Part shown: piece after piece, positions 21,047 to 45,496 of the stretch
How the letters are laid out: each line of letters starts with the position of its first letter
How positions within the stretch are numbered: the first letter of the stretch is position 1
From: Sulfolobales archaeon
GTDB taxonomy: Archaea; Thermoproteota; Thermoprotei_A; Sulfolobales; NBVN01
Assembly (NCBI GenBank): GCA_025058345.1
Contig: JANXEN010000003.1
Span: 124,001 to 188,000, forward strand
DNA length: 64,000 nt
Direction of reading: 5' to 3'
Translations under genes and position numbers: made by a program
The notes under the pieces: generated by a model
Seen by the model: the letters and a program-made list of their open reading frames with translations, nothing else
What the model was told of the DNA's origin: nothing
Database searches by the model: none

Positions 21047-21790
21047 TTACTGAGTATTTGGATTTAACGTATTGCTTGATTTCACTCTCGTATTTGAGGA
21101 AATCTCAACATAATTTAAGCCACTCTTAATCAGTAATTTATATGCGTTGGGAGTTATGGATTGAGAGGCTATATAACCCTTAACGTTAAGTCCTAGGCCT
21201 CTATAGTAATCGACGTACCTAATTAACTGGTGCACAGCATCTAAATCAGCTTCAGCCCTCTTACATTCAACTAATATTAACTCATCTTTAGAGTTTCTTA
21301 GAATTAAGTCGATCCTACCGTGAGGTGTTATGAATTCCTTAGCTATTAATTTAGCATCGCTTTCAATTATCGACGGATTGGAAGCTATGTAGTCTACCAT
21401 ATCATCCTCCGTACCTTTAAGTATAATTAAACCCTTTCGAAGTTTAAGCAGCATTAAATGCGGTTTATCTTTAATATATACCTTAACCACCTCTTTAGGT
21501 CTACTTCTCATGGCCTTAATCTCAAATGACTCTTCATTTACCTTTGTAGTTATTACGGCGTTAGGCTGCCAGTTAATGGGGTCTATACCCTTCCCTTCAT
21601 GAATTATTAAAGAGCCATCTTCTTTTATAACAATTAGTCTTCGCGCCTCTGATGCTTTACTTGATGCTCTTCCCTCATAGAAAACCTCGCAATTCCCAAC
21701 TAATACAATGGTGTTTAATTTATAGTTCTTCCTAATGAGTTCATGAAGTACATCCCATTCTACATTAGGTAGTAGTACCTCTTCTGACGT
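21047..21790 (-). CDS. nucS: Endonuclease NucS (EndoMS), apparent ACG start
   Basis: Mismatch- and flap-specific endonuclease. The ORF track shows only 154 residues from ATG 21511, but the frame is open upstream to a stop at 21797-21799 and encodes the missing N-terminal DNA-binding domain, including TIVLVGNCEVFYEGRASS and IHEGKGIDPINWQPNAV. The C-terminal RecB-like nuclease core has GRIDLILRNS and LILVECKRAEADL, giving the D-E-K site. No ATG, GTG or TTG exists in the upstream frame. A perfect GGAGGTGA (21804-21797) is followed after six bases by ACG, giving a 247-residue protein, close to the about 250 of known NucS. It overlaps the end of the DHH gene by 26 bases. Confidence 0.85.
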   Translation of the reverse strand, partial: TSEEVLLPNVEWDVLHELIRKNYKLNTIVLVGNCEVFYEGRASSKASEARRLIVIKEDGSLIIHEGKGIDPINWQPNAVITTKVNEESFEIKAMRSRPKEVVKVYIKDKPHLMLLKLRKGLIILKGTEDDMVDYIASNPSIIESDAKLIAKEFITPHGRIDLILRNSKDELILVECKRAEADLDAVHQLIRYVDYYRGLGLNVKGYIASQSITPNAYKLLIKSGLNYVEISSNTRVKSSNTLNPNTQ

Positions 21791-22724
21791 TTTTAATCAC
21801 CTCCAAAACGCCTAGCTGTGCCTTTTCTAAAGGTGTATTATTTAGGGTTGCTGAGGCTGCCTCAACGTGTCCGCCGAACTTACCTCCCAATCTTTCAGCA
21901 ATAACTTTACATAAAGTTAGGGCATTCTTTCTTGAAGACCTAATGGTTATTACTACTTTCCCCTCCTCCTCACGTATGAGGATAGCATCCTTCTTCATTT
22001 CCTTAGTAAATTCGGTGGAGGCTATACCTAACAACCCGGCATAGATCCTGGATTCAGAAGAGGTTAGGGTGGTTATAAGGTAGTCCCCCACCAATATCGC
22101 TCTATCTCTCATAAGCTTTAGCAACTTATTAAGCAACCATTTCGCAGTAGCTGCACGTTTAGTCACCTCCTCAAGGTTTATGATGTTATTACCTCTTAAC
22201 ATAGATCTTATTAGGAAGTGAAGGAATTCTGTATCACCTGGATCTCTAGCTATTGATAGTTTAATTAAATCAGCCATTTTACTAAGCTCATCCTGAGCCT
22301 CAACTCCTTCGCATATATCCGCAACTCTAATTAGTATAGCTTCGTAGGGATTAGTGTTGAGTTTCAGTGTTTCATTCATGAGTTTTGGGGTGGATGTAGC
22401 TTTACTCCATATTACCTTAGCTCCAATTCTAGTTAATTCGGCTACGAATTCTTCACTGCTTATGTGGTGATCTATTACAACGATTTTAGCTTTAGAAGCT
22501 AAGGGGATCATGGTGCTGATTATGTCTTTACTCAAAGCTATGTCAAGCATAACTAATTCACTAATTTCTTTAGGGACTTTCTTAATGTCTAGGTGAGCTC
22601 TCCAAGGTTGTGTAAATATTAACTCCGTTTTACTGGGGTAGGCGTCTCTCAAAAAATGCTTTATGTAGAGAAAAGCGCTTATAACACCGTCGCAGTCGCC
22701 ATGACATATAACTGCGGACTTCAT
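21765..22724 (-). CDS. DHH/DHHA1-family phosphoesterase (RecJ/nanoRNase-like)
   Basis: Predicted Mn2+-dependent phosphoesterase acting on single-stranded nucleic acid or short oligonucleotides. DHH-domain motifs are visible in order: ICHGDCDGVISAFLY at residue 6, VMLDIALS near 58, KIVVIDHHIS near 81; the C-terminal DHHA1 motif is GGKFGGHVEAASATL near 277. Length 319. It is upstream of, and overlaps, nucS, which suggests coupled expression in DNA repair or recombination. Whether it is a RecJ-like exonuclease, as in the archaeal replisome, or a nanoRNase cannot be told from these motifs. Confidence 0.87.
   Translation of the reverse strand: MKSAVICHGDCDGVISAFLYIKHFLRDAYPSKTELIFTQPWRAHLDIKKVPKEISELVMLDIALSKDIISTMIPLASKAKIVVIDHHISSEEFVAELTRIGAKVIWSKATSTPKLMNETLKLNTNPYEAILIRVADICEGVEAQDELSKMADLIKLSIARDPGDTEFLHFLIRSMLRGNNIINLEEVTKRAATAKWLLNKLLKLMRDRAILVGDYLITTLTSSESRIYAGLLGIASTEFTKEMKKDAILIREEEGKVVITIRSSRKNALTLCKVIAERLGGKFGGHVEAASATLNNTPLEKAQLGVLEVIKNVRRGTTT
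21797..21804 (-). promoter_or_regulatory. Perfect Shine-Dalgarno for nucS
   Basis: GGAGGTGA on the minus strand is the full complement of the archaeal 16S rRNA tail and lies inside the last codons of the DHH gene. It is six bases before an in-frame ACG that begins the nucS frame. There is no other gene start it could serve, so it decides the start. Confidence 0.75.
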
Positions 22725-45005: not shown

Positions 45006-45423
45006 CTCTAAAGTCATCAATATCCAAAGGCCTCAACTCAATCTTTTTAATTTCAAACCATTTACAACTCAATAAATAGAAAAACTACGAATTACTTTTT
45101 AAATAGACAAAATAGATACATTACGAGCACTCCAAGCATGATTGCCTTCATTGTTTTGAAGCATCAGCACATAGTGATTATTGTTTTACAGAGCGATAGG
45201 TTATCGCTTCACTTATATTCCTTCCACATAGTGAGGACCTCTCCTTAAATACCCTATCTAGGAGTTACGCCGACCTACCATGTTTGCATCAGAAACTAGG
45301 CTACTGATCATCGTAAAAGGTTTTCCATAATTCTATACTATCGCGCACAATATGTTCGATTTAACGTTTATGTCGAATTCTTATGTTGTTAATTTAGAAG
45401 TCATTGACATTATTATGTGGTAG
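45006..45423. other. Gene-poor gap between dctM and tRNA-Thr
   Basis: Contains T-rich runs just after dctM (atcttttta, near 45043) that may end its transcript, and a small perfect hairpin AGCGATA-GGT-TATCGCT at 45192-45208 with no T-run behind it. I see no ORF with coding character and no full C/D or H/ACA RNA. The short ORF 44882-45079 is an out-of-frame shadow of dctM. Confidence 0.4.

Positions 45424-45496
<73 letters not shown>

Follow-up and report, generated by a model that had tools for sequence, protein, structure and literature searches.

A nucS gene with a probable ACG start, and evidence for habitual Shine-Dalgarno-anchored initiation at near-cognate codons in an archaeal family

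The DNA-repair gene nucS described here probably starts at ACG (probability about 0.83), as one case of habitual initiation at near-cognate codons, ACG foremost, that is anchored by Shine-Dalgarno (SD) sequences in an archaeal family. The window, i.e., the whole stretch of 64,000 nt analysed, corresponds to C33:124001-188000 of the 1.36-Mb MAG of a hot-spring archaeon (G000; 54 contigs, 82.6% complete). The relatives compared are mostly archaeal MAGs; the genus of G000 contains just one other genome, G001 (CALEDH01, uncultured Sulfolobales), and the references also include G004 (JAJHRE01 Bin S28, Desulfurococcaceae) and Zestosphaera tikiterensis NBVN01 (G002).

The nucS frame lies on the minus strand, opens after an in-frame TGA, and continues for 249 open codons (translation from 21796) up to the stop at 21049-21047 (Table 1). 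No ATG, GTG, or TTG occurs in this frame before the ATG at 21511, which lies 93 codons past the ACG. A complete GGAGGTGA precedes the ACG by 6 nt (intervening TTAAAA; minus-strand sequence cgttttGGAGGTGAttaaaaACGtcagaagag), and the overlap between nucS and the DHH-DHHA1 gene amounts to 26 nt (21790-21765). A preliminary description of this DNA had proposed an ACG start with an SD six bases before it inside the end of the DHH gene, and the sequence and the orthologous start column bear this out; its account of an upstream frame devoid of ATG, GTG, and TTG, and of 247 residues as the size of a NucS, proved accurate in every checkable detail. The N-terminal domain is indeed missed by ORF callers, which return only 154 aa, with NucS_N present upstream.

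Table 1. Features of the nucS locus (window coordinates) and other genes with candidate non-canonical starts (genome, contig, and position)
Feature	Position	Strand	Candidate start codon	Remark
Shine-Dalgarno GGAGGTGA	21797..21804	-		within DHH gene, codons L-E-V-I; same place in G001 (AGAGGTGA) and G004 (AGAAGTGA)
TGA opening the nucS frame	21797..21799	-		last three bases of SD; equivalent stop (TGA or TAG) in G001, G004, G008, G020, G024
Probable nucS start codon	21788..21790	-	ACG	6 nt past SD; gapless alignment to ATG (G004) and GTG (G001)
nucS (EndoMS/NucS mismatch endonuclease), 247 aa + stop	21047..21790	-	ACG	Pfam; 2VLD match
N-terminal 93 codons without ATG/GTG/TTG, missed by ORF callers	21512..21790	-		sequence, orthologue identity, omega
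ATG called by ORF finders, judged internal Met	21509..21511	-		relatives have A, V, L, or I in this column
DHH/DHHA1 phosphoesterase-family gene, upstream of nucS	21765..22724	-		Pfam DHHA1 39.4 bits, DHH 29.6 bits
Phosphoglucomutase/GlmM-like	G000 C11:104667		ACG	exactly at G001 start column
Endonuclease V	G000 C11:200757; G001 C1:42083		ACG	in both species
RpoL	G000 C22:8902		ACG	GGTGG-ACATCA-ACG
TFS	G000 C22:9543		ACG	masked by in-frame GTG of own SD
Radical-SAM protein, MetE-like protein, GatD	G001		ACG	
Dyskerin-domain protein (DKCLD) and two more	G002		ACG	
	G017 C2:330175		ACG	
CDC48	G001		ATT	
	G000 C22:85527		ATT	
RIO kinase, diphthamide synthase	G000		ATA	
Pyruvate:ferredoxin oxidoreductase-beta-like	G000 C11:165513		ATA	
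Second radical-SAM protein	G001		ATA	
ThermoDBP-like protein, ferredoxin-type subunit	G001		CTG	

Pfam scores the 249-aa read (from 21796) at 81.8 bits for NucS_N, with a cut-off of 23.9, and at 80.5 bits for NucS_C, with a cut-off of 24; both domains are in one chain, and the 247 aa from the ACG fall within the range of about 235-280 aa of two-domain NucS. Residues 19-233 of the 249-aa read match the Pyrococcus abyssi NucS structure 2VLD along both domains (E=7.7e-35), and the NCBIfam PRK04247 score is 201.5 bits, slightly below the cut-off of 216. The residues R41, W74, D161, E175, and K177 are invariant in the NucS alignment; on the basis of work in P. abyssi and Thermococcus kodakarensis, we take R41 and W74 to be the DNA-binding R/W of the N domain and D161, E175, and K177 to be the RecB-like catalytic D, E, and K. 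The protein is similar to NucS/EndoMS of these two organisms (2VLD, 5GKE) in both domains and in size, and the start codon is the only unusual feature. Elsewhere in the same order, a NucS_C match is absent in four nearly complete genomes (G029, G031, G034, and G039), and nucS seems to have been lost in some relatives.

The arrangement of an SD with an embedded stop, two codons, and the start is common to G000, G001, and G004, and alignment of the nucS starts places ATG (G004) and GTG (G001) in the ACG column, the comparison that the preliminary description had suggested. The same SD/stop layout precedes a GTG start of nucS in G008, G020, and G024, and other family members have GTG or TTG in a similar arrangement. 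An indel importing an ATG from another frame was rejected, as the stop-SD-start layout is conserved. The SD variants among orthologues (TTAGAAGTG, TTAGAGGTG, and TTGGAGGTG) differ synonymously in the DHH frame, and through such differences G000 has the strongest nucS SD among the three close orthologues. In the N domain, G000 shares 65.6% identity with G001 and 62.4% with G004, compared with 54.8% between G001 and G004. The omega of this domain, 0.228 (G000 vs G004), is near the 0.239 obtained for G001 and G004, with synonymous sites near or at saturation. Judged by these comparisons, the N domain of G000 NucS is intact, under purifying selection, and constrained as in relatives.

The perfect 8-base SD was rejected as evidence by itself: GGAGGTGA followed within 4-8 nt by ATG, GTG, or TTG is found 19 times in the genome vs 16 times for a reversed-pattern control. 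It is the position of the nucS SD, not its 8-base sequence, that carries weight, since the layout is common to orthologues and the spacing lies at the genome mode. Orthologue-supported canonical starts show a gap of 4-7 nt after GGTGN (mode 5-6), 103 of the 120 GGTG-led starts of G000 lie at 4-7 nt, and the 6 nt of nucS fall within this normal range. Among the seven GGAGGTGA-N4-8-ACG sites of the genome, only that of nucS heads a long frame in which no canonical start is close by; another heads a 141-codon frame but is preceded, two codons before it, by an ATG in frame, and one is located inside a longer frame.

A homology scan of stop-to-stop frames covered 624 kb of G000, 458 kb of G001, 400 kb each of G002 and G017, and 80 kb of G004, i.e., about 1.96 Mb from the MAG and its relatives, in addition to 0.8 Mb belonging to two genomes that are more distant. 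A gene was flagged when homology extended at least 10 codons upstream of its first canonical codon and the orthologue had a canonical start. The flagged genes, some artefacts included, numbered 15 of 548 in G000, 19 of 362 in G001, 14 of 293 in G002, and 7 of 258 in G017. Flags were dropped for genes with an ATG or TTG 10-14 codons in (e.g., G000 C22:61654 and C11:52045), for rRNA/tRNA regions (G002, G040), and for gene fragments. Gene family names are from Pfam, and the naming of pyruvate:ferredoxin oxidoreductase was inferred from sequence. In nucS itself, the codon at the orthologous start column is SD-led and one base from ATG, with no canonical codon nearby, and the other candidates are listed in Table 1. 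We estimate that near-cognate starts may be present in some 1.5-4% of the conserved genes compared in G000 and its genus-mate, a figure whose underlying flags include artefacts and cases without a near-cognate and to which hidden cases with an SD-embedded GTG would add; some genes in other genera of the family may have them too. The codons appear to be used in the order of ACG most often, then ATA, ATT, and CTG, behind good SDs.

Several individual genes deserve description. Diphthamide synthase has no canonical start in G000 (C11:76774, minus strand) or in its G001 orthologue on C1; in both, the candidate codon lies 6 nt past an SD-like stretch and is ATA in G000 and, perhaps, GTA in the orthologue, although a GTA start would be unusual. 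In a pyruvate:ferredoxin oxidoreductase-like cluster (G000 C11 at about 165.5 and 167.5 kb; G001 C1:177801), several subunits have non-canonical starts (ATA for beta, CTG for the ferredoxin-type subunit, and an unclear start for gamma), which perhaps tunes subunit ratios. The GTG inside the SD is the only nearby "canonical" codon at G000 C22:9543 and C11:165513, at 234.9 kb of G001 C8, and at 354 kb of G002 C14, where ORF callers would wrongly place the start at this GTG, about three codons too far upstream. A creatininase-family gene located 2.7 kb before the window (G000 C33:120441-121301, minus strand) has no canonical start and an ATA 6 nt past AAGGTGA; an alternative ATG lies in another frame beyond an A-run (possible one-base indel), and the gene is 88% identical to its G001 orthologue, which starts with ATG TAT ATG. 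A threonine-synthase-like gene (G000 C33:93690 and its G001 C8 orthologue) lacks a canonical start, and the codon 7 nt past its SD (GCC/ACT) is not a near-cognate; the LeuRS-like gene of G001 was flagged, yet has no near-cognate at the SD position.

The excess of near-cognate codons was evaluated in two ways. In a codon-blind test, the start was set by SD match and spacing alone in 35 well-supported flagged genes, and the expectation came from 20,000 draws among the remaining codons of these stretches. Near-cognates were found in 18 of the 35 genes, where 6.1 were expected (P<5e-5), and 8 genes had ACG, where 1.4 were expected; the remaining 17 SD positions held other codons. When the start was placed by homology only, in the orthologue column, near-cognates occupied 10 of 22 columns vs 3.8 expected (P=0.0016), and ACG occupied 6 of 22 vs 0.35 expected (P<5e-5). 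In 10 of the 11 strongest (exact-column) cases, the SD matches over 4 or more contiguous bases, compared with 47-72% of canonical starts in G000 and G001. At SD-led columns common to these two genomes, the codon is non-canonical in 3 of 55 for G000 (ACG, ATA, and TGT) and in 5 of 57 for G001 (CTG, CTG, ATT, ACG, and TTT), and six of these eight codons are near-cognates. Random damage to ATG would yield AAG, ATC, and AGG about as often as other near-cognates; at the top SD positions of the flagged genes, AAG and ATC do not occur, and AGG occurs only once.

The preliminary description had left three options for nucS, namely initiation at a non-canonical codon, recent mutation of ATG to ACG, or an error in the base. 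The first is the most likely, but as a habit of the lineage rather than an isolated oddity, since many other conserved genes in G000, its genus-mate, and elsewhere in the family show the same feature. A single recent substitution at nucS, leaving a weak or failing start and no wider pattern, would need one transition from the ATG seen in this column in G004, and this T-to-C change falls on a synonymous third position of the DHH frame. However, the same state recurs in many more genes and in further species, endonuclease V has ACG in two species, and the N domain shows no decay, so that this explanation is quite unlikely. Likewise, a single wrong base at 21789 in base calling or assembly of the MAG would suffice, but no gene interrupted by a stop or frameshift was seen among the 548 of G000 that were compared (505,650 coding nt), and seven apparent gene splits in G000 are all antisense shadows of intact genes. 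This bounds the substitution error at an estimated value near 1e-4 per base, from which about 0.15 spurious start losses would be expected vs at least 8 seen, and the pattern recurs across independently assembled MAGs. A base error at nucS alone is a possible but less likely reading, the whole set is beyond its reach, and we regard this explanation as very unlikely.

Translation might instead begin at the ATG at 21511, the first canonical codon of the frame, and yield only the 154-aa C-terminal nuclease. We judge this ATG to encode an internal Met because relatives have A, V, L, or I in its column, neither Met nor a start; furthermore, no GGTG-type SD lies ahead of it, and the 93 codons upstream encode the conserved NucS_N domain under selection. 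The preliminary description had rightly considered a 154-aa product implausible, and we give this option next to no chance. We know of no C-to-U mRNA editing in archaea. Such editing of ACG to AUG, as in plant organelles, would allow canonical initiation, and it agrees with ACG as the commonest non-canonical start and with a genomic ACG at the start column, as in the organelles. Nevertheless, the starts are not limited to codons editable into AUG: these genomes repeatedly show ATA, ATT, and CTG as well, and C-to-U changes cannot convert ATA or ATT into AUG. Editing is highly improbable as the explanation.

For initiation at the ACG, the small ribosomal subunit would be positioned by pairing of the SD with 16S rRNA 6 nt upstream of the ACG, on an mRNA probably shared with the overlapping DHH cistron; the 16S gene is partial in the G000 assembly, and its 3' end (anti-SD) is missing. 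The ordinary initiator Met-tRNA(CAU) would pair imperfectly with ACG (C.A mismatch at the middle base), and NucS should therefore begin with Met. We infer ribosome initiation at the ACG, insertion of Met, and any level of expression from sequence. The pattern GGGYTCNTAACCC for the initiator anticodon stem-loop returned one site, GGGCTCATAACCC, with the normal CAT anticodon, and no version with another anticodon (e.g., CGT) was found in the 82.6%-complete assembly; an altered initiator tRNA (anticodon CGU) was rejected on this ground. Loss of aIF1 as the cause was also rejected, as the aIF1 gene is present in G000. The machinery seems to be ordinary but permissively used, with no recoded initiator. 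According to work cited in PMC8211752, the aIF1 of Sulfolobus helps to discriminate against starts that are non-canonical, so the efficiency of near-cognate starts may be low, and lineage-specific changes in aIF1 or aIF2 are worth testing. Coupling through the 26-nt DHH overlap is given little weight because published data on archaeal translational coupling favour very short overlaps (PMC10666635). Separately, the window contains a single tRNA, tRNA-Thr(CGT) (45423-45496, minus strand), an elongator reading ACG, probably by coincidence.

Candidate near-cognate starts were found in G000, in its genus-mate, and in other genera of the family (G002 and G017). The two more distant genomes, G040 and G025, are presumably Pyrolobus fumarii and Ignisphaera aggregans. 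With more remote references and lower power, no plausible near-cognate start was seen in G040 and one plausible case in G025 (a DUF2204 protein, ACG, C1:63235), and we do not claim confinement of the habit to the family of G000, given this lower power. In G025, a protein of about 526 aa (C1:86745-88325), presumably archaeosine tRNA-guanine transglycosylase by reading of the sequence, lacks any canonical start close to the N terminus, and a GTT lies 7 nt past GAGGTGG.

Near-cognate initiation in prokaryotes is exemplified by the AUU start of bacterial infC. Furthermore, Ribo-seq in Methanosarcina mazei indicated unannotated small ORFs that start with CTG (PMC11456600). The starts described here resemble both in their one-base difference from ATG and are presumably likewise read by the ordinary initiator tRNA, but they would concern about 1.5-4% of compared conserved genes, core ones included, with ACG the commonest, rather than unannotated small ORFs as in M. 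mazei. In yeast, initiation at UUG, ACG, and AUU occurs at a low level (PMC6898956). The eukaryotic codon set is similar, with ACG prominent, and factors of the eIF1/eIF1A/eIF2 type are common to eukaryotes and archaea, whereas eukaryotic cases involve scanning and upstream ORFs and those described here are SD-anchored main coding starts. Weaker start codons tend to be paired with stronger SDs (Belinky et al., 2017; PMC5622118); nucS fits this tendency, and the near-cognate set is likewise SD-rich, although that study covered switches among AUG, GUG, and UUG only. A literature search on ACG start codons in archaea, with most subscription journals outside its coverage, returned nothing relevant.

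Archaeal gene finders assume ATG, GTG, or TTG. If the proposed reading is true, annotation loses N-terminal domains as well as entire small genes (RpoL, ferredoxin subunits), and where genes of the lineage seem absent or truncated, this may be an artefact. The reading also bears on the aIF1/aIF2 balance of SD pairing vs codon-anticodon pairing, a process partly common to eukaryotes, for which the near-cognate-start genes would be natural test genes. In a broader sense, we lean towards the view that start choice is durably relaxed in a family of thermophilic Thermoproteota, Zestosphaera and its kin, perhaps more widely in Desulfurococcales/Sulfolobales: ACG would be an ordinary fourth start beside ATG, GTG, and TTG, with ATA, ATT, and CTG used too, in core genes such as RpoL as well; strong SDs would compensate for the weaker codons, and standard annotation would truncate or miss those genes.
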